Shown here one piece after another: positions 14,811 through 31,120 of a stretch of 54,090 nt of DNA. The position numbers and the translations under genes were made by a program. The notes beneath the pieces are model-generated. The model made no database searches. It was given only the letters and a program-made list of their open reading frames with translations, and was not told the origin of the DNA. The number at the start of each line of letters is the position of its first letter. Positions within the stretch are counted from its first letter, which is position 1. Origin of the DNA: Deltaproteobacteria bacterium (GTDB lineage: Bacteria; Desulfobacterota; Desulfomonilia; Desulfomonilales; Desulfomonilaceae); the NCBI GenBank assembly GCA_023474025.1, contig JAMCYH010000215.1, positions 1-54,090 of the forward strand. Direction: 5' to 3'.

Positions 14811-15431
14811 CTATTTTTTCGGACTTACAGGGCTGCCTGGCTCCTTCTTACGCTTTAGCACAATAGGTTTAGGATTTTGGTAAAGCGGGTTCTGTGTATA
14901 GTAATGGCCACCGCTATTTTGGTCTTTCACTTTTTCGGGTGTGTCCAAAGGTATAAGAGTGACTTCGTCACCTCCTGCTGTTTGCAGTTCAATATAATCA
15001 CCGAGAAAATGTTTGTTTAGAGCCTTATCGTATGCGTACTTGTCCATGCCGTCAGTTGCATAAGGGATTCTCCAGATAAGATTGTTCCTTCGTCTATACT
15101 GCCTGTATTTGATACCTGTTTCCTCATCAGTATAATCCTCGATTTGTACTACGTTTCCTGATTTCAGATGGTCACTGATAGCTATCATGGAAAATTCTTC
15201 TCTTGCCTTTGCATCAGCAGCAGAATAAGCGTCAGTTATCACCTTCATTTTCATCCAAACCCAGTCACCTTCACCTTCGTTTAGCTGTTTCCAGACCTTA
15301 GCTTGTTGTTCTTTTGTGCCATTGATCAGTAGGTGAGTTACCGCTTTGTAAATTTCTTCAAATGAGTATTTTTGTTCTGTCGGAGAGGGTTTATCTTTCG
15401 TTTGGCTTTGTGATACCTTCTTTTTAGCCAT
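14811..15431 (-). CDS. Hypothetical protein, last gene of the restriction operon
   Basis: The 206-aa protein is not recognised. It begins with a lysine/serine-rich, probably disordered tail (residues 1-22) and ends with a basic proline-rich tail. The middle is mixed and soluble, with many charged and aromatic residues and no membrane segment. No catalytic motif is evident. It starts three bases after the stop of the HNH-protein gene, so it is almost certainly the distal member of the hsd operon. An accessory role in the restriction system is only an inference from position. Confidence 0.7.
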   Translation of the reverse strand: MAKKKVSQSQTKDKPSPTEQKYSFEEIYKAVTHLLINGTKEQQAKVWKQLNEGEGDWVWMKMKVITDAYSAADAKAREEFSMIAISDHLKSGNVVQIEDYTDEETGIKYRQYRRRNNLIWRIPYATDGMDKYAYDKALNKHFLGDYIELQTAGGDEVTLIPLDTPEKVKDQNSGGHYYTQNPLYQNPKPIVLKRKKEPGSPVSPKK

Positions 15432-15434
15432 AAT

Positions 15435-16304
15435 TCAATTTGTGGATCTACTTGCGATTTGACCAGTCAAAATAAAACTATCAAAATTCAAAGGATTCAT
15501 CACCACACCATCTTGTCCAAGCATGACATTGGCTCCATTATGAAATTGTATTTTTCCGTTTTGAATTACAACTGGTCCACCAGTAATTATATTTCCCGTT
15601 TTAGCATCAATTTGCTTACCAATTTTTGTCTGAATAGTAATCTGTCCAGTTGCCTCATTTGAAATCAAAGCATTGTCACCATATCTAAGGTTGGCAATTT
15701 CTATGGCAACAATATGAGGGGGTCGAGCATTGATTTGTAATAGGATTGAACCCTGTTTATCTTTGATCGTAAGTGTATTTCCAACAGACTCAATGTCCCA
15801 AGCCTCTGGCTTGCCAAACCATTCATTATCTTTTATTTCGAATAGAATATTGCCATTATGATCGTGGAATATACCTGACAACAAGGGTGGTTCACCGTCC
15901 ACTTTTCTCATACTTAGAACCGTTTTTCCGTCAATTTGCAACAAATCTCCTGTTTCTGTTTTGTAAAAGTAAATTCTACCTACACTTATTCCAAAAGGTT
16001 CACCAATATCGAAAAAATCATTTGAATATCCTTGTTGTTTGCACTTTGGAGCTAACCGAGCTTTCTTGATTTTATCTTTTGACCAAATTCTCTTTGTAAC
16101 TTTTAGATGACAACCTCCGCACAGTAATGCCATTTTTGTAGGGTCGTGTTCGGCTGCATCAGCAAATTCAGGATCAATATGCTCATAAGTGTATATTGTC
16201 ATTCCACATACAACACAACCAAAACCACACTCTTGCCTAATCTGAAGTTTTATTGGGTTGGGTATATGTCTTGAAAAACCATGAGAATTTGTATTATTGT
16301 CCAT
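15435..16304 (-). CDS. HNH-domain protein with C-terminal beta-rich repeats
   Basis: The N-terminal 95 residues form a zinc-binding HNH-type nuclease fold. CGFGCVVCG supplies the first cysteines, YEHIDPEFADAAEHD the EH-D metal-binding centre, and LLCGGCHLKVT the second zinc knuckle and catalytic-region histidine. The remaining about 190 residues are beta-rich and contain recurring segments of the form NGNILFEIKDN / QGSILLQINA. These suggest a beta-solenoid or a binding domain. It lies 11 bases after the metallopeptidase gene in the hsd operon. It may cut DNA independently of HsdR or act as an accessory defence nuclease; this is inferred. Confidence 0.75.
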   Translation of the reverse strand: MDNNTNSHGFSRHIPNPIKLQIRQECGFGCVVCGMTIYTYEHIDPEFADAAEHDPTKMALLCGGCHLKVTKRIWSKDKIKKARLAPKCKQQGYSNDFFDIGEPFGISVGRIYFYKTETGDLLQIDGKTVLSMRKVDGEPPLLSGIFHDHNGNILFEIKDNEWFGKPEAWDIESVGNTLTIKDKQGSILLQINARPPHIVAIEIANLRYGDNALISNEATGQITIQTKIGKQIDAKTGNIITGGPVVIQNGKIQFHNGANVMLGQDGVVMNPLNFDSFILTGQIASRSTN

Positions 16305-16315
16305 AAAATTATGAT

Positions 16316-16885
16316 CTAACTGACCATAAGCCCCTTCGCCTTCAAATCCTTTGTCAATTCACTGTGATTTGGAAGTACAGAGGCAACTAAGTTCCAAAAT
16401 CGTCTGGAATGATTGAACTCTTTCAGATGGCAAAGCTCATGTACGACGATATAATTGGCTAAATCGTCTGGTAGTAGTACCACCCGCCAGTTGAAATTGA
16501 GGTTCTTTCGCTTTGAACAGCTTCCCCAGCATGTTTTCTGGTCTTTTATATTGATCGCATTGAATTTTAGTTTGAGCTTCCTATTGAATCGTTGGACTTT
16601 TTTGGTAACAAGTTCCAATGCCTTTTGTTGCATATCTTCGCTATTCATGTCTGAAAATACTTTTGGTTGTTTATTTCGAAGTTCGTCAAAAAAATCCATT
16701 TTCTCCAGAACCCAACGAGATTTTTGTATGAGATATCGATCAATATGGTCATTTTGCAGAGTATGAGGAACAGTAACTACAAAATCTCCTGTGCAATAAA
16801 CAGTTAGCCTCATCCGCTTAGCCCTTTGGCTTCGCTTGAGAGTATACGAAACCTGTCGATTGTGCAAAGTAATATGTTTTGTCAT
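16316..16885 (-). CDS. YgjP-like zinc metallopeptidase (DUF45/WLM group)
   Basis: The 189-aa protein has the zinc-binding motif VVHELCHLKEFNHSRRFW: HELCH plus a third ligand histidine seven residues on. This is the YgjP/DUF45 arrangement. The upstream KTCWGSCSKRKNLNFNWRVVLLP is also characteristic of that family. Its first base overlaps the last base of hsdR. YgjP-like genes are known companions of type I restriction operons, but their function there is unresolved. Confidence 0.88.
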   Translation of the reverse strand: MTKHITLHNRQVSYTLKRSQRAKRMRLTVYCTGDFVVTVPHTLQNDHIDRYLIQKSRWVLEKMDFFDELRNKQPKVFSDMNSEDMQQKALELVTKKVQRFNRKLKLKFNAINIKDQKTCWGSCSKRKNLNFNWRVVLLPDDLANYIVVHELCHLKEFNHSRRFWNLVASVLPNHSELTKDLKAKGLMVS

Positions 16886-19794
16886 TAGAATCGTTTGACA
16901 ACAATATCTATCAGCCTATTTAGATATTTCGAAAAGTCAGATACGTCAATTTTGCCCTTGTATTCTTTCAGAATGATTTCTTGCAGAGTCTTCTTTGCTC
17001 CTTTGATAAACTCCTCCCGCTTGGATGAGTTCTGCCAGCCTTCATCTAAAACATCTGACAGTCTGTTTGAGATTTCGTGTACAAGATCGAGTAAAACTTT
17101 TTGGTTAGCACCTTTGATAAACTCTTGGGAAATAGTGAAAAGTCCAAACTCTCGTAGGTCTAAGCCAAGCTCCTTAGCCTCATCGGCTTTACTTTTTATG
17201 TCATTGAGTAATTCATAATACCGTTTTATCCGTTCAGACAAGTCAATTTGCTGATTTTCAAATTCTTTCTTGATAGCGGACAGGCGCTCACTAAACCTTT
17301 GAAAGACAGGATTCGTATCGACATTGATCGATATTTCCTGTTTGATAACCTTTTCCAAATTACGAGCTTTTTCGTCGTCGTCCATTTTATTCAAGCGATC
17401 AAGGGTATAAACATCATTGACCTTCAATTCACGGAAATTGCGGGTAATACCTTCATAATCAATTCGTTCCTGAATTAGGCTCTTTACCTTTTCGCCGTAT
17501 TCAGCTAAAAGCTCGTGATCGATTCCCTGACTTCGATACTCTTTGACAAATGCCAAATAAAAACTGGTGATCCATTCAAATTTTCGTAAGTATTGTGACA
17601 AGAACGGATCAGGGGACAGGACTTCAAACAAAAGTTTTAGACGACTGTATTTGTCAGTGAAGAATTGTTGCTTTCTTTCATTGTCGGCAAATATCTTCAG
17701 TGCTCGACGTAAGTTGTCCATCGAGGGATCTTCAATATTGATCCCGACAAAAAGTTCCATCACTTCGCCCAAGACTTTAGTAAATTCTTCTTTTAGCTTA
17801 TCGATGTTTAGCATGGCTGAGTCGACGATACTTTCATCGAAATCCAGTGCGTCATACAGGTTCTTGGTAATTCCGTAGTAGTCAATAATCTTTCCACACC
17901 CTTTATTTGGATAGACTCGGTTAGTGCGGGCAATGGCTTGAAGCAGGTTATGATCTCGTAACGGCTTATCGAGGTACATGACCTGTTCAACAGGTGCATC
18001 AAATCCCGTAAGTAACATATCGCAGACCAATAAAAATTTGAGTGAGTTCTTGGAATCTTTGAAACGCTCGATAATCTTCTCCCGTTGTCTTTTATTAGTG
18101 TTATATTCTGTCAAATCATCCGTATCTGTATTCGGATCGCCAGGAGAGTACACGACTTCAGACCATTCAGGCGAAGTTAGCTCGTCAATCAATTTTTTGT
18201 ATTTGGCTGTGGCTTCTCGGTCATAACAGACAATCTGAGCTTTGAATCCGTTTGGCTCAACATACAAACGGTAATGTTCCACAATATCTCGTGCTACTGC
18301 CTCCATGCGTTTATCCAGTTTTACCAATGCTTCTTTTTTGCCGTATTTACGCATTAGAAGGTCTTTTTGCTCTTTGGTTAGGTCAGTTGTAAGTTCGTCA
18401 AACTGTTCATCGACTCGTTGTTCGTCAATCGAAAACTTTGACAATCTGGCTTCGTAAGTCACTGGTAAGGTTGCTCCATCATCGATAGCTTGTTGAATCG
18501 AATAATAATCAAGATACCGTTCACCATCTTGACCGAAGTTTCTATGGGTGTTGAGTGTTTTTTTATCAATAGGCGTGCCAGTAAAGCCAAAGAAGAAAGC
18601 CTTTTGCATTGATGTACGAAGGTTTATAGCTGATACTCCCTCGTTATCTCTGTGAGCCTCATCTGATAAAACGATTATGTTTTCGTTGGGATTTTCAATA
18701 TCATGTCCAAGTTCCGTAAATTTCTGGATAGTAGAAATAAAAATACCTCGCTCTTGGTTATAGATTTTCTGCTCCAGTTCACGACGTGAGGTTATACGAA
18801 TCACATTTTTACCACCACAATTTACGAAAGTGTCGTATATCTGATCATCAAGGTCGATACGATCAACTAAAACAAATACCTTCGGATTTTTTAGTTCCTT
18901 ATCAAATCGTAACTTCCATGCAGTGAAGAACATAGTCAAACTTTTTCCAGAGCCTTGTGTATGCCAAATCAGGCCTCGTTTCTTTTCACCGTCTTTGACC
19001 CGATCAACAATCTTGTTGGATGCCCGTAACTGTTGATATCGAGCCATCTTTTTGACCTTACCGTCCTTTTCCTTCTCGAAAACAATAAAATTGGCGATTA
19101 CATCTAATATCCTTTCCTTGCCTAACAACGATTCCAGAGTCATTTCAAGGGCTCCACCGAGATTTTGTTCGAGTTCCTCATCTTTCCACTGTAAAAAGTA
19201 TTGTGGGGGTGTGTAAGTGGTTGCATAGACCGTTTTTAGGCCGTCCGTGGCAATATTGAAGCAGTTTGGCCAATAAAGACGTAGAGCATTTCTTTCATAT
19301 CGTTTGAGTTGGCCGACGGCCTTCGAATAATCAACTGATTCACCAGCCGTAGGGCTCTTAGCTTCAATATCCACAAGTGGTAAGCCATTTACAAAAACCA
19401 TTATGTCTGGCCGTACGTTTTCCAAGTTACCTTCGAAATAGAATTGATTGGTGACAACAAATCGATTATTATCAGGGTTTTCCAGATCTATTATTCGGTA
19501 ATCCCGCATTTTACTTGTGGTAGGGTCTTTTAGGTTTATTCCGTTTCGATAAGCATCTAAAAATGCCTCATTAGTATCCAGCTTTTTGACTTCTCGAAGG
19601 ACATTTTGAGCAACTTCATCATCGACACCATTGATTCGCTTGATTGCATCCAAAATATGCGAAGAAATCAAAAATTCGGTTTCAAACTGACGCAGAGTTG
19701 AATATACCTCTGGTTTTATGTACTCGTAACCCAAAGTTTCAGAAAGAAACTTGATAATATGCTTTTCCACTGTATATTGTTCGTTGAATTTCAT
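16885..19794 (-). CDS. hsdR: Type I restriction enzyme, restriction subunit HsdR
   Basis: HsdR is the motor and nuclease of a type I restriction complex (with HsdM and HsdS), which translocates DNA and cuts it at a distance from unmethylated sites. The 969-aa protein has a PD-(D/E)XK nuclease domain (PDIMVFVNGLPLVDIEAK, residues 129-146). The SF2 translocase follows, with Walker A TQGSGKS (279-285), DEAH (378-381), FTGTP, and late motifs LVCDMLLTGFDAP and QAIARTNRVYP. A long helical C-terminal region presumably binds the methylase core. No truncation is seen. Its start overlaps the end of the preceding membrane-protein gene by four bases. Confidence 0.95.
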   Translation of the reverse strand: MKFNEQYTVEKHIIKFLSETLGYEYIKPEVYSTLRQFETEFLISSHILDAIKRINGVDDEVAQNVLREVKKLDTNEAFLDAYRNGINLKDPTTSKMRDYRIIDLENPDNNRFVVTNQFYFEGNLENVRPDIMVFVNGLPLVDIEAKSPTAGESVDYSKAVGQLKRYERNALRLYWPNCFNIATDGLKTVYATTYTPPQYFLQWKDEELEQNLGGALEMTLESLLGKERILDVIANFIVFEKEKDGKVKKMARYQQLRASNKIVDRVKDGEKKRGLIWHTQGSGKSLTMFFTAWKLRFDKELKNPKVFVLVDRIDLDDQIYDTFVNCGGKNVIRITSRRELEQKIYNQERGIFISTIQKFTELGHDIENPNENIIVLSDEAHRDNEGVSAINLRTSMQKAFFFGFTGTPIDKKTLNTHRNFGQDGERYLDYYSIQQAIDDGATLPVTYEARLSKFSIDEQRVDEQFDELTTDLTKEQKDLLMRKYGKKEALVKLDKRMEAVARDIVEHYRLYVEPNGFKAQIVCYDREATAKYKKLIDELTSPEWSEVVYSPGDPNTDTDDLTEYNTNKRQREKIIERFKDSKNSLKFLLVCDMLLTGFDAPVEQVMYLDKPLRDHNLLQAIARTNRVYPNKGCGKIIDYYGITKNLYDALDFDESIVDSAMLNIDKLKEEFTKVLGEVMELFVGINIEDPSMDNLRRALKIFADNERKQQFFTDKYSRLKLLFEVLSPDPFLSQYLRKFEWITSFYLAFVKEYRSQGIDHELLAEYGEKVKSLIQERIDYEGITRNFRELKVNDVYTLDRLNKMDDDEKARNLEKVIKQEISINVDTNPVFQRFSERLSAIKKEFENQQIDLSERIKRYYELLNDIKSKADEAKELGLDLREFGLFTISQEFIKGANQKVLLDLVHEISNRLSDVLDEGWQNSSKREEFIKGAKKTLQEIILKEYKGKIDVSDFSKYLNRLIDIVVKRF

Positions 19795-20483
19795 TTTGAT
19801 ATTTTGTGAATTTTTATATTTTCTAACATCCTATCCTCATCATCAGACCAATCTTTCTTGAATTCTATTTCCCAGTAAATCGTTTCGGGTTTTACGTTCT
19901 CACCACTCGTTATTGCTTCAAACAGATATTTGCCTTCTTCAATAATGTTTGGAATATGACCACCTGAAACTGGATTAGGTTGTACCATAGTATCGAACCT
20001 GAAACGGGTATTGCCATCAAATAACGGCCTAAACGCTCCAAGATCGCATAAGCGAAATGACTTTGGAGGAATTGAAACTGTTATCGGATGATCATGAGCC
20101 CACACTAAATTCATTGGTAAGAACCATTTCACAATCTCCTTTTTTCGTCCATCTATTTTCCAGAGATTAGAAGCGATTATTTCAATATTTTTGGCAATTT
20201 TATTGTCACTTTCATTCGTGACTCGTATTCGTATGTAAATGGATTTGCTAACAAATTTGCCGTTCTGGTCTGACAGATCGATTTGATGACAATCGGGAGG
20301 TGAAGGTCTGATCTCCACAGACAACTTTGCTTTATTGAACCAATCTTTGATTTTCTCTTGGAACAAGGCAACTATTACGGCAGCAGCAGTAATAGTAGCA
20401 AGCACAACCTGAATCCAAAAACCATTTGAGTCAGCCAATACGGGAACTATTTTAGGAGCTTGTTCGATAATCGTGTTTTGCAT
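19791..20483 (-). CDS. Membrane-anchored beta-sandwich protein between hsdS and hsdR
   Basis: The 230-aa protein is not recognised as a named family. Residues about 23-41 form one hydrophobic helix (GFWIQVVLATITAAAVIVAL). The long soluble part that follows looks beta-rich, with KSIYIRIRVTNES and YLFEAITSGENVKPETIYWEIEF resembling an immunoglobulin-like or receptor-type sandwich. It is embedded between hsdS and hsdR with overlaps or single-base gaps on both sides, so it is translated as part of the operon. A role in membrane tethering or sensing is possible but only inferred. Confidence 0.75.
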   Translation of the reverse strand: MQNTIIEQAPKIVPVLADSNGFWIQVVLATITAAAVIVALFQEKIKDWFNKAKLSVEIRPSPPDCHQIDLSDQNGKFVSKSIYIRIRVTNESDNKIAKNIEIIASNLWKIDGRKKEIVKWFLPMNLVWAHDHPITVSIPPKSFRLCDLGAFRPLFDGNTRFRFDTMVQPNPVSGGHIPNIIEEGKYLFEAITSGENVKPETIYWEIEFKKDWSDDEDRMLENIKIHKISK

Positions 20484-20484
20484 A

Positions 20485-21711
20485 TTAGTTGACCTCTACT
20501 TTCATACTAAAAATATCATCCATCAGTCCGTTTTTTAGGTTTCTACTTTTTTCTAAAGTCATATTTTCATTCCCGATTTTCCTGTCAATTTCAGATAAGA
20601 TAGCAACGATCCTTTTTTGTTCCTGATTATCGGGGACTGGAATCTGGAGTGAACGCATATCTTTTAGAAGAAGATTCTTTTGTGCTGATCCGTTCGAAGT
20701 AATTTGTAATGATGGTAGGATGCAAAGAAAGTAATAGTAAAGATATTCTGCGGATACTATCGATTTCTTTGGTTTTATTATGGCCACACTTTTTTGAAAT
20801 GTAGTCTTTCGAGTTTTTTCTGAGTCGTGAGCTATTGCCATACGGCCGATCGTTCCACTGTTGGTCATTACCAAATCGCCAAGTTCCAGTTGAGTACGTT
20901 TATCAGCTTCTTCAAAATCCAGTCTTGTAATCTGTCGTGAATCAGAATAATCGATGATTCCATTATGTATATCCTTAGAGCTAATAAAATAGTAACCTGA
21001 ATCCTGTTCGTTCTGACAATCTCCATGTTTACCATCAGTAATGAGTGTGCATACTTCTGCAAGCTTGGATATTTTCCATTTTGTATTCTTATCAGATTTT
21101 AGGTACTGACCAATAAGTTCGTTCAACAATCCCTTTTTCAATAATTCGGTTTTTGTAATAATTTGATCTGACTTATGAATTTGAGTTTCGATAGCGTTCA
21201 ACATTTCAGCAACCTTCTTTTGGACTGATAACTCTGGCATAGGAATTTTTAGTAAATCAACAAGTTTCACTTTCAAATGAAGTACAGTTGAGCCATTAGA
21301 TATACTTTGCATGTAGTTTCTGGCATTTGATGAAGTTAGAAAATGATAAAGATAGTCTTTATCTAAAACAGAACCATCCGTTATGAGTTTAGAAATATCC
21401 ATAGAAATCACATATCTTTCTCCGGAACGTATTTTTGGAACAACCAGTGGAGCTCCGATAACATCACCTGCACGAGTAAGATCAGTATTTGCGATAATGA
21501 GATCCCCAGGTTGGACTAATTGATCGTCTTCAGTTTTACCACGATAATACTTTATTCCATTGAAATTGAAGCCGCCCCCTTTTGCTATACATTTCAGTGT
21601 TAGAAAGATTTGACCGTCAGATTCAGATGCGTAATCTTCAGTTTTATAAGTTATTCCTTTCACTACCGTACAAGCATCTCCTAATTTTACTTGTTGCCAT
21701 TTTTGTGTCAT
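20485..21711 (-). CDS. hsdS: Type I restriction enzyme, specificity subunit HsdS
   Basis: HsdS recognises the split target sequence for the M and R subunits. The 408-aa protein shows two target-recognition domains, each followed by a conserved helical spacer. The first half begins WQQVKLGDACTVVKGITYKT and ends KIPMPELSVQKKVAEMLNAIETQI. The second begins WKISKLAEVCTLITDGKHGD and ends QIPVPDNQEQKRIVAILSEIDRKI. Two complete half-sites imply a bipartite target. No second or inverted hsdS fragment was found nearby, so specificity switching by inversion is not indicated. Confidence 0.95.
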   Translation of the reverse strand: MTQKWQQVKLGDACTVVKGITYKTEDYASESDGQIFLTLKCIAKGGGFNFNGIKYYRGKTEDDQLVQPGDLIIANTDLTRAGDVIGAPLVVPKIRSGERYVISMDISKLITDGSVLDKDYLYHFLTSSNARNYMQSISNGSTVLHLKVKLVDLLKIPMPELSVQKKVAEMLNAIETQIHKSDQIITKTELLKKGLLNELIGQYLKSDKNTKWKISKLAEVCTLITDGKHGDCQNEQDSGYYFISSKDIHNGIIDYSDSRQITRLDFEEADKRTQLELGDLVMTNSGTIGRMAIAHDSEKTRKTTFQKSVAIIKPKKSIVSAEYLYYYFLCILPSLQITSNGSAQKNLLLKDMRSLQIPVPDNQEQKRIVAILSEIDRKIGNENMTLEKSRNLKNGLMDDIFSMKVEVN

Positions 21712-21712
21712 A

Positions 21713-22054
21713 TTATTTTTTCACCAATCCAAAAATCGATACTCTATCTAATAGATATTGCCGCTCCATTTTGAGTTTCTCTAACTTTGCTTCGAGCGGT
21801 TTACGCTCCCTTTCCACAATTTTGTCCAAAACAGGTTGACTTACTGGGCCTCTCTTTTTATGCATCGTCATCTCAAGATTATCGATTTCATCTTTTACAG
21901 CAAAGATCTGATCTTCTTTATTTTTTACTTTTCCGAATACCTGCCAAACGTAATAGGCAAATCCAAGAAGCAAACAGGTAGATATGATTGCCAAAACTGC
22001 TCCTGGCAATTTTCCTAACCAATCGTAAATAGTAAGCTGTGTTTGGGTATTCAT
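21713..22054 (-). CDS. Small membrane protein with cytoplasmic coiled coil
   Basis: The 113-aa protein has one N-terminal hydrophobic helix (about residues 12-37). A charged, heptad-like segment then extends to the C-terminus (KNKEDQIFAVKDEIDNLE and later KLEKLKMERQYLL), typical of a coiled coil. No family is recognised. It overlaps the 158-aa gene by four bases and is followed one base later by hsdS. With the 107-aa protein it gives the operon two small membrane-anchored coiled-coil partners. Confidence 0.75.
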   Translation of the reverse strand: MNTQTQLTIYDWLGKLPGAVLAIISTCLLLGFAYYVWQVFGKVKNKEDQIFAVKDEIDNLEMTMHKKRGPVSQPVLDKIVERERKPLEAKLEKLKMERQYLLDRVSIFGLVKK

Positions 22055-22527
22055 ATTTTCATTCTTTGAACCTTTAGCTTTTTATCTTTTTCGTCCCAGT
22101 AGAAATTGACAATTTCCTGGTTATCCAAAGACTCAATGAACTGTACGTTCACTGATTCTTTTAGCTGATTCCAAGCTTCCTGCTCTTCGGGAGGGAATCC
22201 AACGTTTATCGGATTTACATCTCCATTTTTATCCTTGAAATGCAGCTCAATACTTGTATTGATTTTTGCTTGTGGTTTCTTGCTTTTTGCCCATTTGTAA
22301 GCTCTTATCACAGCCCATTGGATTAGCTCAAAAAGTAAACCATCACGAAGGAGCTGATACGCATCTAAATCACGAAAAAGAAGTCGGACTAATTCGGCCT
22401 CGCTAAAAGTCTTGGTAAAATAAGGAGCAACCTCAACTTTTTTCTCCTGCAACAGAGATTGTAATTCAGCAAGTTCTTCTTCTGTAAATTTTCCGTTTAC
22501 TAAGAGTTCCATATTTTTATCCGCCAT
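22051..22527 (-). CDS. Hypothetical soluble protein between hsdM and hsdS
   Basis: The 158-aa protein is not recognised. It is soluble, helical in the first two thirds (EEELAELQSLLQEKK; DAYQLLRDGLLFELIQWAVIRAYKWA) and more beta-like at the end (NTSIELHFKDKNGD). It overlaps its upstream neighbour by 11 bases and its downstream neighbour by 4. Such overlaps suggest the three small proteins are made in fixed ratio and may form one complex. Confidence 0.75.
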   Translation of the reverse strand: MADKNMELLVNGKFTEEELAELQSLLQEKKVEVAPYFTKTFSEAELVRLLFRDLDAYQLLRDGLLFELIQWAVIRAYKWAKSKKPQAKINTSIELHFKDKNGDVNPINVGFPPEEQEAWNQLKESVNVQFIESLDNQEIVNFYWDEKDKKLKVQRMKI

Positions 22528-22840
22528 GCGTAAATTTGTATATTTCGAAAGTCAAACCAGCTACGGCTATGACAATTCCTATTCCAGAAATAATTACACC
22601 GGCGAGAGTAATCTTATTGAGGGCTGCTGTAAGTCTATCTGATGATTTACTGGCTTCTTCAACATTTTTATTGAATCTTTCAGCATTCTGATTTAGCTGC
22701 TCCAGTTTCTGCTCGATACGGCCAATAGTGGAATAAAATCCAGTTGGAGTTGTCTTTTCGGAGAAATACCAAGCAAGTGCGTCTAAAAACTTGTCAACTT
22801 TTTCATCTCTGTTTTTACCTTTCTCAAAATTATTGATCAT
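22517..22840 (-). CDS. Small coiled-coil protein with C-terminal membrane segment
   Basis: The 107-aa protein has a charged helical N-terminus with a coiled coil (GRIEQKLEQLNQNAERF). A strongly hydrophobic segment near the C-terminus (ITLAGVIISGIGIVIAVAGL) probably forms a membrane hairpin or single span. No catalytic motif is visible. It overlaps the 3' end of hsdM by 11 bases. The architecture mirrors the 113-aa protein of the same operon but with the membrane segment at the opposite end. Confidence 0.75.
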   Translation of the reverse strand: MINNFEKGKNRDEKVDKFLDALAWYFSEKTTPTGFYSTIGRIEQKLEQLNQNAERFNKNVEEASKSSDRLTAALNKITLAGVIISGIGIVIAVAGLTFEIYKFTHGG

Positions 22841-24521
22841 AGCCCAGCTCCTTGATAAAACTTGTCACCTGCTTATTGATTTTTTCCCGTTCTGATTCCA
22901 ACTGTTTTAGTTCTTTCCAGACCTTTTTGACATCAATCTGTTCTTGTTCTTCGCTACCATCGATATAACGTCTGACGTTGAGGTTGAACTCGTTTTCCTC
23001 GATTTCCTTCATGTCCACGACTCTGGAGTACTTTTCGACATCCTCGTATTTGTCATACGTTTTGACTATTTTTTCGATGTCCTGTTTTCGGAGTGAGTTC
23101 TGGTTCTTGCCTTCTAAGAAATCCCGCTCTCCATCGATAATAAGTACCTTGCCTTTTTTGTTTTCTGGCTTGTTTTTGTTGAGAATCCAGATTGCAGCAG
23201 GAATACCCGTGCCATAAAAGAGTTTCGGCGGAAGGGCCACGATAGCATCTACAAGGTCATTTTTGAGGATTTGCTCTCTAATACGACCTTCGCTGCCACC
23301 TCTGAACAAAACACCGTGAGGGAGTACTATTCCAGCCCTACCATTTGTGTTCATTGATCGAATAATATGTAGGACGAAGGCAAAATCAGCATTTTTTTGC
23401 GGAGGAAGGTCATAGCCGTCAATTCTGCCGTATTTGTCATTACGATAGACTTCAAATTCCCAATCTTTTATCGAGTAGGGCGGATTTGCTACGGCTATGT
23501 CGAAGGTTTGCAGATTACCAGATTCGGTCAGAAATTGCGGATTTGCCAGCGTGTCCCCCCGACGAATGTCTGCACTATCGAGTCCATGCAAAAACATGTT
23601 TATTTTTGAGATGGCAAAAGTACCAATGTTTAGCTCCTGCCCGTATAGATAAAGGGTACGGGCAATATCTTCACCTGCTTTGTCTTTCAGATAGTTGTAT
23701 GCTTCCAGAAGAAAACCGCCTGATCCCACGGTAGGGTCGTAAATGTGATCTCGTTGGTGTGGTTTGAGAATACCAATAATTACTCGCTCAACCTCCCGTG
23801 GAGTATAGAACTCGCCGCCTTTTTTACCAGCGTCAGCCGCAAACTCCTTGATCAAATACTCATACGCATCTCCAAGCAGATCAGAACTAATGTAGGTACT
23901 TCCGAAATTGTATTGTGAGAAATGATTGATCAGACGCTGAAGGGTTTCATTGGGAAAGCGATCTTTGTTGGCAAAATCAAGATCATCAAAAATCTTGTCC
24001 AGCTTGGGACTATTGACGTTGGTGAGCTTATCGAATACTTCATTTAGTCGTTGACCAATATTTTCTGAAGTATTTTCGATTATTGACCATTTGCAATCTC
24101 TGGGAACTTGGAAGCGGTGATTGTAATCAGCTTCGGCCAAAGCAGGATTACCGTACTCATCCATGACCTTTTTATGTTCTTCATCCCAAACGTCACTGAT
24201 ACGTTTATAGAAAAGGAGGCCAAAAATGTATTTCTTATAGTCTGAACTATCTATTTTGCCTCGAAGAATATCGGCACTTCTCCATAAAAACTGTTCAAGC
24301 TGTGCCAACGTGAGTTTGCTACCGGCCTTTTCAATTAGTATTTGAATGTCTTGTTTGCGGTATTTTCGATCTTTACGTGCACCTACACGGAGAGGAACAA
24401 GTACGCCGCTTTTTTCCCAGTTACGAAGTGTATCGGGATGGATGTTGAATAATTTGGATACCTCACCAATAGTAAGGAGATCAGGAGATTCATTCAGGAC
24501 TTTACTGGCAATAGTTTTCAT
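22830..24521 (-). CDS. hsdM: Type I restriction enzyme, methylase subunit HsdM with N-terminal MerR-like HTH
   Basis: HsdM is the N6-adenine methyltransferase of the complex. The 563-aa protein carries the HsdM helical N-terminal domain (about residues 70-200). The catalytic domain has FYTP (238-241), motif I DPTVGSGGF (262-270) and motif IV NPPY (346-349). Residues about 14-64 are an extra domain reading LTIGEVSKLFNIHPDTLRNWEKSGVL..., a MerR/excisionase-type winged helix-turn-helix absent from ordinary HsdM. It could add DNA contact or autoregulate the operon. It is the first gene of the ten-gene operon and has a well-formed promoter. Confidence 0.95.
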   Translation of the reverse strand: MKTIASKVLNESPDLLTIGEVSKLFNIHPDTLRNWEKSGVLVPLRVGARKDRKYRKQDIQILIEKAGSKLTLAQLEQFLWRSADILRGKIDSSDYKKYIFGLLFYKRISDVWDEEHKKVMDEYGNPALAEADYNHRFQVPRDCKWSIIENTSENIGQRLNEVFDKLTNVNSPKLDKIFDDLDFANKDRFPNETLQRLINHFSQYNFGSTYISSDLLGDAYEYLIKEFAADAGKKGGEFYTPREVERVIIGILKPHQRDHIYDPTVGSGGFLLEAYNYLKDKAGEDIARTLYLYGQELNIGTFAISKINMFLHGLDSADIRRGDTLANPQFLTESGNLQTFDIAVANPPYSIKDWEFEVYRNDKYGRIDGYDLPPQKNADFAFVLHIIRSMNTNGRAGIVLPHGVLFRGGSEGRIREQILKNDLVDAIVALPPKLFYGTGIPAAIWILNKNKPENKKGKVLIIDGERDFLEGKNQNSLRKQDIEKIVKTYDKYEDVEKYSRVVDMKEIEENEFNLNVRRYIDGSEEQEQIDVKKVWKELKQLESEREKINKQVTSFIKELGYDQ

Positions 24522-24568
24522 ATCAATTTCAATATTTGTAATCCAGACTTGGATAACAGTTCAGTGAG

Positions 24569-24597
24569 AGTATAGTACATTTTTTAGAAAATTGCAA
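24569..24597 (-). promoter_or_regulatory. Promoter of the hsd operon
   Basis: On the minus strand TTGCAA (24592-24597) is followed after exactly 17 bases by TATACT (24569-24574). This leaves about 45 bases of leader before the hsdM ATG at 24521. The divergent promoter for the recombinase operon must lie just to the right. Confidence 0.7.
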
Positions 24598-24605
24598 TAG
24601 AAAAG

Positions 24606-24650
24606 TTTCATAGGTTTTCATAGGTTAGATCGTGCGTAATGAAGCTAAAC
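24606..24650. repeat. CATAGGTT direct doublet with a GAAGCTAAAC box
   Basis: CATAGGTT occurs at 24609-24616 and 24619-24626 (period 10). Fourteen bases later comes GAAGCTAAAC (24641-24650), one base away from the GAGGCTAAAC box of the array at 27169-27508. The group sits between the hsdM promoter and a TTGACA box (24653-24658) and may be the operator of the divergent region. Confidence 0.45.
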
Positions 24651-24717
24651 ATTTGACAACAGTTTGCTCTCTGCTACGCTTTACTTATATACAAATAAAA
24701 ATTGAAATAAGATTGAT

Positions 24718-24876
24718 ATGACGACCAAAACTAAGGAAATCAGGCATAGAAAAAAGACCACTTCTCGAACCCCTCTTACCCAAGCCGAAATCATCAGACG
24801 AATCAACCGATCTACCAGAAAATCCTATCGCTATTTTGAGATGTTGATTTGGAACGGAGGTGGCTATGGGAAATAA
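24718..24876 (+). CDS. Small basic protein encoded ahead of the tyrosine recombinase
   Basis: The 52-codon frame starts at the ATG of TTGATATG and encodes a very basic protein (MTTKTKEIRHRKKTTSRTPL at the start). It has a helical LTQAEIIRRINR stretch and ends WNGGGYGK. Its stop overlaps the recombinase ATG by 11 bases, and its last codons contain the GGAGGT that serves as the recombinase ribosome-binding site. It is therefore probably translated and coupled. The charge suggests DNA binding, perhaps as an accessory factor. Confidence 0.55.
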   Translation: MTTKTKEIRHRKKTTSRTPLTQAEIIRRINRSTRKSYRYFEMLIWNGGGYGK

Positions 24877-25789
24877 CTTAGCACTTCCTGATTGGCCATC
24901 TAAAATATTTGCCAACCTGGACGTGACAGAAGCAACCAGACAGGAGTACTACCACAGGATCAGGCTGTTTATTGATTTTGTCCAGTCACACGGATTCACT
25001 CGAAACAGCTATTTGGAATATAAGCGGTATTTGGCTAAGCGGACTAACCTCAGCGTCAGTACCAAGAACAAATATCTGATTGTGGCCAGAGTGTACTGTA
25101 AAGAGTTGAACAGACAAGGATTTGTTCCGATAGATATAACTCTCAATATCAAATCGTTCAAGCAGTCACGCAAACACAAGAAAGATGGCTTCACAGAATC
25201 AGAAGTTCAACAGTTACTTACTGCTGTTCAGGGTTCGGACACCTGTCGCATCAAGGCCTTGCTCAGTCTGTTGGTTCTGCAAGGACTCAGACAGGTTGAG
25301 ATAGTTCGACTGGATGTGACTGAAATTGATCTGGTTTCACAGACGGCTTTTATTAGGGGCAAAGGACAGGATGACACAGAGATCATTGACCTCCATCCAA
25401 CCACAGTTACAGCTCTGAAAGAATACATGAGGTTGTACAAGATCGCTGATGGCCCATTATTCTCGAGCACAAGCAACAATTCAAGTCACGGTCAAAGATT
25501 GACCACCCGCTCACTCAGAAACTTGATCAACCCAATTCTCAAAGAACTGGGTATCGACAGAACCGTACACGGTTTCCGCCACTTCTTTACCACAAAGCTG
25601 ATTCAGTCCTACAAGGGAGATTTGCTCACTGTTGCTCAGTACACCCGCCATAAGAGTCTGGAAATGTTGCAAGTTTATAACGACAACCTGAAACACAAGG
25701 CTGACTTGCCCAAGTATTACGAAACTTTTATTGATATCAATTTCATCCAAAATGAAGCTCCAACTTCCCATAACCCTAATTACAAGTAA
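24866..25789 (+). CDS. Tyrosine recombinase/integrase (XerC/D-like)
   Basis: The 307-aa recombinase, counted from the ATG behind GGAGGT, has a SAM-like N-terminal DNA-binding domain (about 10-95). The catalytic domain follows, with Arg I at R142 (LQGLRQVEI), the beta-hairpin lysine near K166, HGFRH (H235, R238), H262 in RHKSL and the nucleophile Y271 in LQVYND. All catalytic residues are present, so it should be active. It diverges from hsdM. In some genomes such recombinases shuffle hsdS genes, but only one hsdS is visible here, so element integration is the simpler reading. Confidence 0.93.
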   Translation: MGNNLALPDWPSKIFANLDVTEATRQEYYHRIRLFIDFVQSHGFTRNSYLEYKRYLAKRTNLSVSTKNKYLIVARVYCKELNRQGFVPIDITLNIKSFKQSRKHKKDGFTESEVQQLLTAVQGSDTCRIKALLSLLVLQGLRQVEIVRLDVTEIDLVSQTAFIRGKGQDDTEIIDLHPTTVTALKEYMRLYKIADGPLFSSTSNNSSHGQRLTTRSLRNLINPILKELGIDRTVHGFRHFFTTKLIQSYKGDLLTVAQYTRHKSLEMLQVYNDNLKHKADLPKYYETFIDINFIQNEAPTSHNPNYK

Positions 25790-25797
25790 TAAAAAAT

Positions 25798-26496
25798 ATG
25801 ACACAAAAAACCACTAAAACAGACCAACAAAAACTACCAATAATCCCACTCGAAAATGAGGATTCCAAACTTCAGAAGTATCATGGCTTTGAACTTAGGA
25901 CTAAAAGCAACCTGCCACTCGATCAGGTCGTGTCAGGTTTGCAGAAGGCTATCCGAAGAGGATTAGAGGATCGAGCGCTGTACTTTATGCATGAAATGAT
26001 CGAAAGTGGATTCATCAAGTACTTCTGGCGTCGAATCTCTGTCATATGTATCGAAGACGTGGGGTTAGCTAATCCAAATGCACCTATTCTGGTCAATTCG
26101 TTAGCTCAGATGAATGAACGACTGAATCACAGAAAAGAAATCAGAGATACCTATTGTCCAGGTATGGCGGTGCTATACCTTTGTAGAGCACCCAAGTCAC
26201 GAGAAGTGGATTATGCCCTCGATTGGGTAGATTTGAAACGAAAAGAAGGGGTGGTAATTGAACCAGAAGATTTTGATTTGGATTGTCATACAGACTTAGG
26301 AAGGCAACGACTGAAAGAAAAAGCAAAAATAGCTGGTAAAACATATGACGAGTTAGTGGATGAGAAGTTTTATTTTGAAGGGATATTGGCAAATACTCCC
26401 GTATCGGTAAATGACGATGTGTGGAAAAAGAAAGTCTGGGAATTGCGAAAACTCGATAAGTCCCGTATCAGCCTGAAATATACAGAATCAGAATAA
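25798..26496 (+). CDS. Stand-alone RarA/MgsA C-terminal domain protein
   Basis: The 232-aa protein matches the C-terminal half of the replication-recombination ATPase RarA/MgsA. The hallmark helix region is KAIRRGLEDRALYFMHEMIESG followed by RRISVICIEDVGLANPNA. In full-length RarA this part forms the tetramerisation region next to an AAA+ motor, but no Walker motifs are present here and there is no AAA+ gene beside it. It could modulate the host RarA or act in element replication. It starts eight bases after the recombinase stop, so it is in the same operon. Its 3' end overlaps the convergent Xre gene by nine bases. Confidence 0.8.
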   Translation: MTQKTTKTDQQKLPIIPLENEDSKLQKYHGFELRTKSNLPLDQVVSGLQKAIRRGLEDRALYFMHEMIESGFIKYFWRRISVICIEDVGLANPNAPILVNSLAQMNERLNHRKEIRDTYCPGMAVLYLCRAPKSREVDYALDWVDLKRKEGVVIEPEDFDLDCHTDLGRQRLKEKAKIAGKTYDELVDEKFYFEGILANTPVSVNDDVWKKKVWELRKLDKSRISLKYTESE

Positions 26497-26736
26497 CTCA
26501 GACATTCTGATCTTTAGTTGTCTGGCAATTTTTTCCAAGACTTCGACGGATGGCATGTTACGCCCCTGTTCAATAAAGCCCATATAAGCGCGACTCACCC
26601 CAATTTTGTCTGCCAGATCTTCCTGGGTTAGCCCCACTTCTTTTCTCCGCTTCTGTATTCTCTTGCCGAGTTTTTTCGGCAACACAGCATTTGCTCGCAT
26701 ACAGATATTGTCTGGAAGAATAAACTCATTATCCAC
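26488..26736 (-). CDS. Xre-family helix-turn-helix regulator
   Basis: The 82-aa protein is almost entirely a lambda-Cro/Xre-type HTH: LGKRIQKRRKEVGLTQEDLADKIGVSRAYMGFIEQGRNMPS, followed by LEKIARQLKIRMSELF. Such regulators usually repress the element's own genes. It is transcribed towards the RarA-C gene and diverges from the 101-aa gene at 26810, with a 9-bp inverted repeat in that gene's control region as a possible operator. Confidence 0.92.
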   Translation of the reverse strand: MDNEFILPDNICMRANAVLPKKLGKRIQKRRKEVGLTQEDLADKIGVSRAYMGFIEQGRNMPSVEVLEKIARQLKIRMSELF

Positions 26737-26761
26737 TAAGCCACACTTAGCAACTAGCCTG

Positions 26762-26820
26762 AATATACCCCTATTTTCTTTGCTAACTTTCAGTTATACT
26801 TACATCAATATGGGTATATT
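26762..26820. promoter_or_regulatory. Perfect 9-bp inverted repeat bracketing a promoter
   Basis: AATATACCC (26762-26770) and GGGTATATT (26812-26820) are exact reverse complements whose centres are 50 bases apart. Between them lies TATACT (26795-26800), a plausible -10, and the right arm overlaps the ATG at 26810. The geometry fits a two-site operator for the divergently encoded Xre repressor. Confidence 0.5.
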
Positions 26821-27115
26821 TGGAAAATCCAAATCAAACGAGGAAAAGCAAAAAGAATTATTTGAAAAGTACGGCTTAGACATAGATAGCTACGACGACC
26901 AAAAGATAAAAGAGAAAAATGCTAAAAACCTTCATCAAATAGCCGAAGACTTATTTCTCTCAGGTCTAAACAAGTTTGGAATGGGTTTGACCATGAGCAT
27001 ACCAGACCACGCTAAAGTTCAGTATCTAAGTGCCATTTTTGAATCCAATTTGATCATAATTCGCCAAAATGAGCTAATCCTTCGAGCACTGATGAAAATA
27101 GCTGATAAAAAATAA
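26810..27115 (+). CDS. Hypothetical 101-aa island protein
   Basis: The frame is longer upstream, but that part is antisense to the Xre gene. The ATG at 26810, directly behind a plausible promoter, is preferred. The product (MGIFGKSKSNEEKQKELFEK...) is charged and helical at its start, then has a segment rich in hydrophobic residues (DLFLSGLNKFGMGLTMS) and ends NELILRALMKIADKK. No family or catalytic motif is recognised. Its divergence from the Xre regulator suggests it is repressed by it. Confidence 0.6.
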   Translation: MGIFGKSKSNEEKQKELFEKYGLDIDSYDDQKIKEKNAKNLHQIAEDLFLSGLNKFGMGLTMSIPDHAKVQYLSAIFESNLIIIRQNELILRALMKIADKK

Positions 27116-27168
27116 CCTCGATAGAATGCCTTACCTACTGATTCCAATGTAAGGTATCTATCTGACTT

Positions 27169-27508
27169 TTTGAGGCTAAAACCCCTATCACCATGTTAGG
27201 CTGGTTTCCAAAATGTTAGGATAGCCAAATCTGTTCCTTATCTTGAACACAATGGAAAAAATAGGATGCTGTTGTAACCTTTAGCCTCGAAATGCCAGTC
27301 ACCTGTATAGGATGAACTCCATTTGTACAGGATGATATGTAAGCATAATTCCTTCAGTTTAGCCTTGAAATGGATTCACTCAAGTAAGGAGTGAATCAAA
27401 ATGTAAGGATGGTAAGTTATTGTATTTAGTGACACGAGGAGAATAACACGATATTTGAGGCTAAACAGCCTACACTACACGAGGAGAGAATAAAAAAACG
27501 AGGATGAC
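27169..27508. repeat. Array of four anchor boxes each followed by a private direct doublet
   Basis: The 450-base gap between the genes ending at 27115 and starting at 27568 holds this array and no gene. Anchors are TTTGAGGCTAAA (27169, 27454, plus orientation) and its reverse form TTTAGCCTCGAAA / TTTAGCCTTGAAA (27280, 27358). About 11-13 bases after each anchor comes a motif repeated twice with a 19-20-base period. The motifs are ATGTTAGG (27193, 27213), TGTAYAGGATGA (27304, 27324), GTAAGGA (27384, 27403) and ACGAGGA (27479, 27498). The doublet differs from unit to unit but is duplicated inside each unit and always contains AGG. An extra ACACGAGGAGA lies at 27432. Confidence 0.7.
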
Positions 27509-27567
27509 TCTTTCGTAAAAATACCGCTCCTTATAGGCCAAATCTGATAAAATAACGCCATATTGAT

Positions 27568-28329
27568 ATGGATATAAAACCAATTCAGATTGACATTGCC
27601 GATAATCGAGCTTTTACTCAGTTAGCTTTCTTTGTTGACGCTCCTGGCTTTTTAGATGAAATCGTAAAAATAAGAGCGAAATATAAAATAAACCCCCAGT
27701 TCGACCTTTCGAAGTCATCAGAAGATGAATTGCAGCTTATCAGAAATACTGAGTTTGAACGGGACATCTCTGAAGTGCGTAGAAAATATAATTTTCCGGA
27801 AATGTTTGATTCTGTTGTAAGAGATGCTGTTCTTTATAATCGAATCACCAAATTCAAAACTGCATACGCCAAAACCTTTGTATATCCTGTCAATTCCGTT
27901 CACAATAATCATGTAGATTTTCATCAAGACGAGTACATGGCAATTATTGTCACACCCCAGTCAACCGAAAAAGATATAAAGGAAGCTTTCGCTGATTGTC
28001 GGTCTGACCTGTTCCTTTCGCAAACATGGAAATCGCCCGTTTATCAGGCTATCGATACGGATACCGTTTCAAATATAAAGAGGGATAGGGACTGGTATTG
28101 GCGTTATAAAAATGGAGAACACCAGCATGAGATTGCTGTTGCAGACAATAAAGGTGCGAGTTATTACACTAAAGTAAAAATGGCAATGAAATATGCTGGA
28201 AACTTATCAGAGGCACAAAGAATGAATAATGAACGATATCTAAATTATGTCCAAGACTATACAGAAACTGTGCGTAAAGCCATCAAGAGATATAAAGCTA
28301 ATCTCCACCGCCATTTACCAACCCAGTAA
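27568..28329 (+). CDS. Hypothetical island protein
   Basis: The 253-aa soluble protein is not recognised. It is rich in charged and aromatic residues, with helical stretches at both ends (FLDEIVKIRAKYKI; VRKAIKRYKANLHRHL) and a central part containing VHNNHVDFHQDEYMAIIVTP. The paired histidines there could bind metal, but no known motif fits. It is the first gene after the repeat array, so the array may control it. Genes of this kind recur in mobile regions, which is why it is treated as real. Confidence 0.65.
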   Translation: MDIKPIQIDIADNRAFTQLAFFVDAPGFLDEIVKIRAKYKINPQFDLSKSSEDELQLIRNTEFERDISEVRRKYNFPEMFDSVVRDAVLYNRITKFKTAYAKTFVYPVNSVHNNHVDFHQDEYMAIIVTPQSTEKDIKEAFADCRSDLFLSQTWKSPVYQAIDTDTVSNIKRDRDWYWRYKNGEHQHEIAVADNKGASYYTKVKMAMKYAGNLSEAQRMNNERYLNYVQDYTETVRKAIKRYKANLHRHLPTQ

Positions 28330-28393
28330 CTGTCGTAATCCATATTTTCTAATTCATTGATAGTCTGTACTCATAGCAAATTGAGTGCAGATT

Positions 28394-28636: not shown

Positions 28637-28638
28637 TT

Positions 28639-28791
28639 ATGATACTGACGATTGCTGAAACCAGAAAGATATTAGGCGACAAGAGTAGTAAATACTCTGA
28701 TGATGAATTGACCGACATTATCAATCTTTTGACCTACATTGCCGACTTGGTAATTGACCATTATGTTCTGAAACAAAAGAATAAACATTGA
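28639..28791 (+). CDS. Small 50-aa island protein
   Basis: The frame starts two bases after the DUF5659-like gene and encodes MILTIAETRKILGDKSSKYS followed by a helical DDELTDIINLLTYIADLVI and a basic end. The sequence looks like a folded helical mini-protein and is tightly packed between two genes, so it is likely translated. I recall similar short proteins next to serine recombinases in Patescibacteria, but cannot name a family. Confidence 0.6.
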   Translation: MILTIAETRKILGDKSSKYSDDELTDIINLLTYIADLVIDHYVLKQKNKH

Positions 28792-28800
28792 TATAAAAAT

Positions 28801-29541: not shown

Positions 29542-29557
29542 TTATACTAAATTATGT

Positions 29558-29575: not shown

Positions 29576-31120
29576 ATGACCATGAATAATGTTAGAAAAA
29601 AAGCCAGCTTATACCTTCGTTACAGTGACAATAAACAAACTGGAAATACCAGCCTGGAAACACAGGAAAGCGTCTGTCGTAATGCTTGTTTAGCTGAAGG
29701 TTTTGACGTAGTGGACATAGTAAAGAACGAGGCTGTATCGGCAAGTAAAACTAACACTGAACGAATAATCGATTTGCTGGATTATTGTAAAAAGCATAAG
29801 GGTGAATTCGATGCATTGGTTGTATTCAAGCTCGATAGATTTGCTCGCTCTCAGGAGCATCACCATTGGCTAAGGGGACAACTTCTAAAACTTGGTATTA
29901 TTCTCCGCTCGGCTACTGAACATATTGACGAATCACCCTCTGGACGACTTGTAGAAGGTGTTTTAGCAGCCGTAAATGAATATGACAACGAAGTAAAGCG
30001 TGAACGAGTAAAACTGGCTTTATGGGCAAGAGTCGAACAAGGCCTATGGCCGTGGGGTGCTCCAATCGGCTATCAAGAGGTTCACGAACAAGGTGTCAAA
30101 CTATCGCCCCGCATACCTGATGATACTTGCAAGGATGTCATTATCGGAATCTTCGAAAAGTATTCGACAGGAACTATTACAAAGAATGATTTAGCTAAAG
30201 AGTTGAGTAAAAAAGTTATCAGAAATTTTGAAGGCAAAAGATTCAAATTTTCCAAGCAAACAATCGACAACATTCTCAAAAATGTGTTCTATGCAGGGTA
30301 TCTTAGGAACAAAGACGGTAAATTGATAAAAGGCCAACACCAAAAACTTATAGACATGACTCTATTTGAGAAATGCCAACAGGTCAAAGCGATGCTTTCT
30401 AACCACGCCACCAGAAAAAGACAATTCATACATCCAGACTTTCCCTTGCGACGGTTTGTGCTTTGCGGATACTGCAATAAGCCTCTCACTGCGTGTTGGG
30501 CTAAATCAGGCCGATACCCGTATTACTATTGCCATAATAAGGCTTGTAAAAAATTTTCTGTAAGTATCAAGAAAGCTGACATCGAAAAACAGTTCATGGC
30601 GTATATTAGTAAAGTAAAACCAACAGATGATTTTATTCCTGTATTTCATGAGGTCTTTATTAGGCGTTACGAACAACGAGAAAAAGAAATAAAAGGCGAT
30701 TATCTCGATCAACTTGCCGTAATTCAGAAACTACAAAAAGACGAGGATTATTTCGTACAGAGTGGAAAAGATCAGATACTACCGCCTCATGTAGTCAAGA
30801 AGAATGTCGATGAGATCGAGGAGAAAATAACCATCGAAAAAATTCGGCTAACCGAGATACATACTGACGAGTTAGATGTGAACGCACTTCTCAATTTTGC
30901 TTATGATTTCATTCGAACCGCAGAAAATGTATGGTATTACGCTCCAATCGATTATAAGATCAAGTTACAAAGGGTAATTTTCCCTGAAGGTCTATGTTAC
31001 ACGGAAACGGGCTTTTCGAACTCCAAAATATCCCGTGCATTCAATCTAATCACCGATATTGCGACTTCTCAGTCAAATGTTGTGACCCCACCGGGATTCG
31101 AACCCGAATTACCAGGATGA
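29576..31120 (+). CDS. Large serine recombinase (site-specific integrase)
   Basis: The 514-aa protein has an N-terminal resolvase domain with the catalytic serine in YLRYSDNKQ (S17) and FKLDRFARS. The Recombinase domain follows (about 170-290). A zinc ribbon, CGYCNKPLTACW...YYYCHNKACKKF, and a C-terminal coiled-coil region complete it. The last residues, VVTPPGFEPELPG, are encoded by the antisense of the 3' half of tRNA-Glu, so the stop codon lies inside the tRNA gene. This is what one expects when an element carrying the gene at its end has integrated into the tRNA. The enzyme appears intact. Confidence 0.93.
   Translation: MTMNNVRKKASLYLRYSDNKQTGNTSLETQESVCRNACLAEGFDVVDIVKNEAVSASKTNTERIIDLLDYCKKHKGEFDALVVFKLDRFARSQEHHHWLRGQLLKLGIILRSATEHIDESPSGRLVEGVLAAVNEYDNEVKRERVKLALWARVEQGLWPWGAPIGYQEVHEQGVKLSPRIPDDTCKDVIIGIFEKYSTGTITKNDLAKELSKKVIRNFEGKRFKFSKQTIDNILKNVFYAGYLRNKDGKLIKGQHQKLIDMTLFEKCQQVKAMLSNHATRKRQFIHPDFPLRRFVLCGYCNKPLTACWAKSGRYPYYYCHNKACKKFSVSIKKADIEKQFMAYISKVKPTDDFIPVFHEVFIRRYEQREKEIKGDYLDQLAVIQKLQKDEDYFVQSGKDQILPPHVVKKNVDEIEEKITIEKIRLTEIHTDELDVNALLNFAYDFIRTAENVWYYAPIDYKIKLQRVIFPEGLCYTETGFSNSKISRAFNLITDIATSQSNVVTPPGFEPELPG

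Follow-up and report, generated by a model that had tools for sequence, protein, structure and literature searches.

Defence genes embedded within type I restriction-modification operons have been described before. The RptR-RMS-DarTG-M48 (RRDM) island of enteropathogenic Escherichia coli (EPEC) carries DarTG2 between its hsd genes, followed by a gene for an M48 peptidase (PMC12255303), and TgvAB is embedded in the type I operon of Vibrio pathogenicity island 2 (VPI-2) of V. cholerae (PMC11411939), in a report that cites Payne et al. 2024 for such 'embedded' defences. With respect to control, type II methyltransferases with an N-terminal helix-turn-helix (HTH) domain repress their own genes (review PMC3874152), and BldC, a free protein of 68 residues, recognizes 9-bp direct repeats (PMC5859096). 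Here we describe a ten-gene operon with the type I genes hsdM, hsdS and hsdR, located in a stretch of 54,090 nucleotides (contig JAMCYH010000215.1 of assembly GCA_023474025.1, positions 1 to 54,090; hereafter the window). We propose, with a probability of about 0.68, that this operon represents a mobile type I chassis, hsdM-hsdS-hsdR-ygjP, of the tiny 'candidate phyla' bacteria known as Patescibacteria, in which two slots, one between hsdM and hsdS (slot 1) and the other between hsdS and hsdR (slot 2), carry exchangeable anti-phage cargo, and in which expression of the operon is set by HsdM itself.

The ten tightly packed genes between positions 14811 and 24521, listed in an earlier note made on this DNA from its letters alone, were all found as open reading frames (ORFs) on the minus strand (Table 1). 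The identities given there for hsdM, hsdS, hsdR and ygjP agree with the Pfam matches, and that of the HNH protein holds through its PHROGs match despite a Pfam score below threshold (E 0.03). The junctions from hsdM through to hsdR are -11, -11, -4, +1, +1 and -4 nt, and those downstream of hsdR, as computed from the coordinates, are -1, +11 and +3 nt. HsdM (Pfam MerR_1 8.7e-10, HsdM_N, and N6_Mtase 1.5e-108), HsdS with two target-recognition domains, and HsdR are encoded together, as judged by Pfam, NCBIfam and PADLOC, and make up a complete type I gene set, and the catalytic motifs can be read in the translations: ANPPYS in HsdM, and SDEAHR (DEAH-box) and PDIMVF...VDIEAKS (PD-ExK-like) in HsdR.

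In order to find related operons, 84,980 species genomes were scanned with HsdM, yielding 46 loci. About 36 of these carry an HsdM that is 70-82% identical to that of the window, accompanied by HsdR of 66-74% and YgjP of 43-55% identity; nearly all are from Patescibacteria, together with one metagenome-assembled genome of Bacteroidales (L059), and the HsdM of the remaining loci is 43-49% identical. A YgjP gene lies downstream of hsdR in every copy whose contig extends that far. Besides the window, 26 copies were complete from hsdM through hsdR (HsdM 71-82%, HsdR 66-74%), giving a set of 27 operons, and cargo was present between hsdM and hsdR in 26 of them. The cargo amounts to 63 genes, grouped by BLAST into 45 families, 32 of which were seen once. 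For the copies with a separate hsdS, slot 1 is filled in 20 of 25 and slot 2 in 21 of 25. Turnover is high even between close relatives: among 71 pairs of operons with HsdM 80-90% identical, a cargo family in common was found for only 7. Two copies, L047 (73-2385) and L059 (1666-3993), have an HsdM of 770-775 aa with an HsdS-tail-like end and no separate hsdS was found in them, which suggests HsdM-HsdS fusions.

Over the 27 operons, 109 of 115 junctions measure 30 nt or less, with a median of 1 nt. The Microgenomates copies have an overlap of 11 nt at this point, the gene after hsdM starting within the hsdM 3' end; the start codon is that of hsdS in L034 and L037, and that of a cargo gene in L038, L056 and the window. 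This shared overlap, used by either hsdS or cargo, indicates that the cargo is seamlessly fitted and probably translationally coupled. As to the proposal of the earlier note that the ten genes form one functional unit, these junctions bear out co-expression as an operon; the part that made the small proteins components of the restriction complex is not supported.

Many of the genes found in the slots of other copies belong to known defence families. By Pfam, L034 carries a SMODS cyclase with a SLATT_4 membrane effector; single named genes are Shedu in L038, AbiTii in L050 and AbiEii in L047; ThsB-type TIR proteins with a partner of 2-3 transmembrane segments occur in L040, L044 and L058; and an OLD-like ATPase (AAA_15) is present in L041, with homologs in L043 and L062. 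Further slot cargo includes UvrD helicase, NYN nuclease, RhuM/Bro-N, DUF3800, DUF4145, DUF3644 and ClpP-like protease genes, among others, and PADLOC returned many matches to phage-defence-candidate families. In slot 1 of L040, L044 and L058 a repeated module was observed, composed of one or more TIR proteins and a protein of 135-140 aa with 2-3 membrane segments.

The second part of the proposal concerns the N-terminus of HsdM. The HTH domain at residues 15-63 has 22 invariant columns in 26 sequences, and is absent from the HsdM relatives of 43-49% identity, whose matches start at residue 63 or later. The HsdM_N domain begins at residue 75, so that the HTH has the form of a MerR-type winged HTH (wHTH) without the dimerisation coil. 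NCBIfam matches of the HTH are HspR (7.5e-8) and HTH_BldC (3e-6), and the profile of the domain matched the BldC structures 6amk (5e-7) and 6ama (2e-6) in the PDB, as well as BrlR. Beside the predicted hsdM promoter lies a direct repeat with the consensus AACCTATGAW-AACCTATGAA; with up to 3 mismatches allowed, the window has this one site only, against 0.01 expected by chance. A site with at most 3 mismatches was found in 31 of 35 promoters of HTH-bearing HsdM, with no second such site in any locus; it stands 3-4 or 8-11 bp before the -35 box in nearly all of these, and in L037 it lies ahead of an additional gene situated upstream of hsdM. The repeat is missing from the HTH-less Patescibacteria copy L056 and from all HTH-less distant relatives. 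Genome-wide, 12 of 14 chassis genomes have exactly one copy; the exceptions are L056, which lacks the HTH, and L064, where the site is degenerate. A single match, with 1 mismatch, turned up in 40 further Patescibacteria genomes, chosen among those lacking a strong HsdM match. L054, L055, L060 and L067 form a subgroup whose repeat extends over the hsdM start codon and is degenerate in its second half.

A regulator with one site should be encoded together with its target, and the HTH of HsdM is the only regulator-type DNA-binding domain found common to these operons, which points to HsdM as the regulator of this putative operator. We infer, for the binding and for the sign of control alike, that HsdM autoregulates the whole defence operon through its HTH domain. 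The repeat might instead be bound by a host regulator or serve as the attachment site of a recombinase, the HTH of HsdM then being used for DNA scanning or excision; excisionase-type HTH domains do look alike (NCBIfam 'excise', E 0.02), and binding of HsdM to the repeat is itself deduced. We regard this as distinctly unlikely in view of the single site per chassis genome and its near absence from genomes without the chassis, its presence with or without a serine recombinase, and its position 3-4 or 8-11 bp from a -35 box in nearly all clear copies.

In the mechanism that we favour, a mobile chassis hsdM-hsdS-hsdR-ygjP, often with a serine recombinase, would hold in its hsd gaps coupled accessory genes, mostly other anti-phage systems. 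HsdM2S would most likely methylate the sites of the host, and complexes with bound HsdR would cleave incoming DNA that lacks the methylation. The BldC/MerR-like HTH of HsdM would probably bind the AACCTATGAW direct repeat next to the hsdM promoter, and in this way the level of methyltransferase would feed back on transcription of the restriction and cargo genes. In the window, slot 1 holds a three-gene module (a tail-anchored protein of 107 aa, a soluble one of 158 aa and a membrane protein of 113 aa) and slot 2 a membrane-anchored beta-sandwich protein of 230 aa, with the HNH protein appended downstream of ygjP; this cargo would act separately from restriction, presumably as a back-up defence at the membrane. 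Slot 1 is best read as a small membrane-acting module and slot 2 as an independent one, and an anti-phage role of the window's cargo is suggested by its position. The more specific claim, that HsdM is a one-site transcription factor gating restriction together with a plugged-in defence module, and that the 107/158/113-aa set constitutes a new membrane-acting anti-phage module, stands at even odds.

The four slot proteins of the window match no named family. A hydropathy scan found single hydrophobic segments at residue 77 of the 107-aa, residue 18 of the 113-aa and residue 23 of the 230-aa protein, in agreement with the membrane segments noted earlier. A relative of the 107-aa protein, 57-61% identical, is encoded within an unrelated type I operon in a different Patescibacteria genome (L119:3053-11664), in the order hsdM, a 101-aa gene, the 107-aa relative, AbiTii, hsdS, a KAP NTPase gene and hsdR; judged by this gene order, the locus is a second embedding of the 107-aa family, adjoining a known abortive-infection family. 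Weak matches of the 107-aa protein to coiled-coil proteins (E about 0.001-0.01) were disregarded. For the 158-aa protein no credible homolog was found in 380 Patescibacteria genomes, and its single-sequence structure model (predicted local distance difference test score, pLDDT, 48) was too poor for use. Relatives of the 113-aa protein, at about 32% identity, stand alone in two genomes. Homologs of the 230-aa protein occupy slots of L042 (43%) and L059 (42%), and further relatives lie beside another type I operon (L095) or stand alone (L094 and three distant ones). The model of the 230-aa protein (pLDDT 61, medium to low confidence) has a helix at residues 18-39 followed by strands, which fits the beta-sandwich proposed for it without fixing the fold. 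Its Foldseek matches, among them ApaG, RhoGDI and the AGS-C domain of Pycsar cyclase, were generic beta-sandwich or Ig-like folds, none below E 0.001, and were not taken as functional evidence. The 158- and 230-aa proteins had no match in viral contigs or plasmids, and the 113- and 206-aa proteins none in plasmids. The HNH protein belongs to a phage/plasmid family, whose members were stand-alone genes in all three plasmid regions examined; a stand-alone relative was also seen in a P2-like prophage. The 206-aa gene recurs in L034, a locus next to another tRNA-Glu and an MgsA_C gene.

The earlier note had suggested that the small membrane proteins tether the type I complex to the membrane, for instance at sites of DNA entry, which would make them dedicated subunits of it. 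The tight overlaps and the membrane segments agree with such a role, as do the 107-aa relative inside another type I operon and the 230-aa relatives that immediately precede hsdR in two further copies. Yet the small genes are missing from nearly all otherwise identical operons, the 107-, 158- and 113-aa genes from all 26 other complete copies, with the 82%-identical copy L034 of Roizmanbacteria among these, and the 230-aa gene from all except L042 and L059; the slots are filled with unrelated and often soluble defence genes; the 230-aa, 113-aa and HNH proteins have relatives that are encoded apart from hsd genes; and membrane proteins are no commoner among cargo of at least 150 aa (14 of 52) than among flanking ORFs (63 of 198). 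Both findings that the earlier note had named as ones that would speak against it, absence of the small genes from the operons of close relatives and their occurrence mainly away from hsd genes, thus hold at least in part. We therefore rejected anchoring on the grounds of slot turnover and the lack of membrane enrichment, and hold it to be very improbable. The slot genes may also be selfish hitch-hikers or toxin-antitoxin-like addiction genes that stabilise the island, the membrane proteins being small toxins, as the AbiEii-type and PemK-like toxin families and the Bro-N/RhuM genes in slots would allow, along with the recombinases and tRNA edges that indicate mobility. Shedu and the SMODS cyclase with SLATT, as in the cyclic-oligonucleotide-based anti-phage signalling system (CBASS), are however known anti-phage systems not regarded as addiction modules, and we consider this reading unlikely, if one of some substance; the two roles are not mutually exclusive.

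Several observations weigh against exchangeable anti-phage cargo under the control of HsdM. The cargo families of the window itself are without assigned function, and the 158- and 113-aa proteins have almost no relatives. The HTH scores equally well on BrlR/MerR-type structures as on BldC, and the period of the operator is 10 bp, not the 9 bp of BldC. The operator is degenerate in L054, L055, L064 and L067, in three of these at the start codon, and L056 has also lost the surrounding chassis genes, so that its joint loss of HTH and operator counts as one event at most. The gene content, the slot turnover, the defence families among the cargo of the other operons, the HTH domain and the conservation of the operator can all be read from the sequences themselves.

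Mobility of the chassis is indicated by its surroundings. The GC content is about 0.38 from about 14.8 to 31 kb against 0.48 in the surroundings, and this low-GC stretch (14811-31155), which also includes a tyrosine recombinase gene and an MgsA_C-domain gene and ends at a large serine recombinase gene and tRNA-Glu, is a genomic island. No 3' duplication of tRNA-Glu longer than 7 bp was found at the opposite island end; serine recombinases need no such duplication. A large serine recombinase adjoins hsdM in 19 loci, and in several loci a tRNA gene directly abuts the end of the recombinase or of ygjP. The chassis was found in about 1% of the Patescibacteria genomes sampled (4 of 380, the seed included), as expected for a travelling island. 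A tRNA-Ser lies near the serine recombinase in L042, L044, L045, L059, L065, L066 and L068, a possible integration preference with no statistics behind it. The earlier note had been silent on the recombinases and tRNA context, as on the HTH of HsdM and the operator.

The assembly containing the window contig is 4.2 Mb, above the size of Patescibacteria. TypA of the window has no full-length counterpart in the genus of the assembly and its matches across the wider family and class are only 43-46% identical, against 53-55% in Roizman-, Gottesman- and Levybacteria, and an 829-aa protein at 31.2-33.7 kb is 58-59% identical to Microgenomates proteins against 50% to those of the assembly's relatives. 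Because both proteins are closest to Microgenomates, the contig is probably a wrongly binned one of Patescibacteria (Microgenomates). Apart from the window, a PD-(D/E)XK nuclease gene follows ygjP in L036 (17780-18535) and L063 (18996-19754), and a 66% relative of the latter lies near a different type I operon (L095:7746-8510).

Table 1. Features of the operon and its flanks, in window coordinates.
Feature	Position	Strand	Basis or remark
206-aa gene, post-ygjP	14811..15431	-	63% relative in L034
HNH protein, 289 aa, post-ygjP cargo	15435..16304	-	PHROGs phrog_6544 9e-58
ygjP, M48/YgjP-like metallopeptidase, constant chassis member	16316..16885	-	Pfam YgjP-like 1.7e-43
hsdR, 969 aa, restriction/translocase subunit	16885..19794	-	Pfam HSDR_N, SWI2_SNF2, T1RH-like_C
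230-aa gene, slot 2 cargo, N-terminal transmembrane segment and beta-sandwich	19791..20483	-	homologs, model
hsdS, 408 aa, two target-recognition domains	20485..21711	-	Pfam Methylase_S, 2 stretches, 2.8e-34
113-aa gene, slot 1 cargo, N-terminal transmembrane segment then charged helix	21713..22054	-	hydropathy
158-aa gene, slot 1 cargo, soluble orphan	22051..22527	-	no family match
107-aa gene, slot 1 cargo, tail-anchored small protein	22517..22840	-	hydropathy, operon comparison
hsdM, 563 aa	22830..24521	-	N-terminal MerR/BldC-like HTH (residues ~15-63) fused to type I N6-adenine methyltransferase
predicted sigma70 promoter	24569..24597	-	-35 TTGCAA (24597-24592), 17-bp spacer, -10 TATACT (24574-24569); consensus match
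putative operator, direct repeat AACCTATGAA AACCTATGAA, 10-bp period	24607..24626	-	9 bp upstream of -35
tyrosine recombinase, divergent from hsdM	24860..25789	+	Pfam Phage_integrase 7.9e-23
large serine recombinase, end overlapping tRNA-Glu	29576..31120	+	Pfam Resolvase, Recombinase, Zn_ribbon_recom
tRNA-Glu gene	31082-31155		overlapped by serine recombinase end

Embedded cargo replaces the attractive but unsupported idea of membrane anchoring, and it offers a search rule for new defence genes of Patescibacteria, namely whatever lies between hsdM and hsdR of the chassis; the slot list already places dozens of unnamed families beside known defence families. Transcriptional control of type I systems is little understood, and a methyltransferase with its own operator-binding domain suggests one way in which such a system could be regulated after arrival in a new host.

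Among the systems described hitherto, the RRDM island agrees with this locus in having a defence module placed between the hsdS and hsdR genes of a type I operon, an M48-type metallopeptidase gene thereafter, horizontal acquisition, and its own transcriptional control through direct repeats at the promoter, which for the window is predicted. Its regulator RptR is, however, a separate protein of 79 aa, whereas the HTH of the window is fused to HsdM; no separate rptR gene was found upstream of the window hsdM, where the interval up to the operator is gene-free and the divergent integrase lies beyond. The chassis also uses two slots and far more varied cargo. TgvAB likewise represents unrelated defence genes between hsd genes, but as one fixed insertion, in contrast to one chassis lineage with high cargo turnover and, in the window, cargo of no named family. 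The type II autoregulators share an N-terminal HTH added to a methyltransferase and an operator at their own promoter, and differ from the window in that the latter has a type I HsdM, a MerR/BldC-like domain and a direct-repeat operator. BldC shares the MerR-like wHTH without the MerR dimerisation coil and a direct-repeat target, but is a free protein with 9-bp repeats of other sequence, whereas the window HTH is fused to a methyltransferase and its repeat has a 10-bp period. The searchable literature yielded no description of a type I HsdM bearing an N-terminal HTH of this kind, which does not in itself prove absence. Embedded defence genes and autoregulation by type II HTH-methyltransferases were thus already known; an HTH domain on a type I HsdM, together with its putative operator, appears to be new here.

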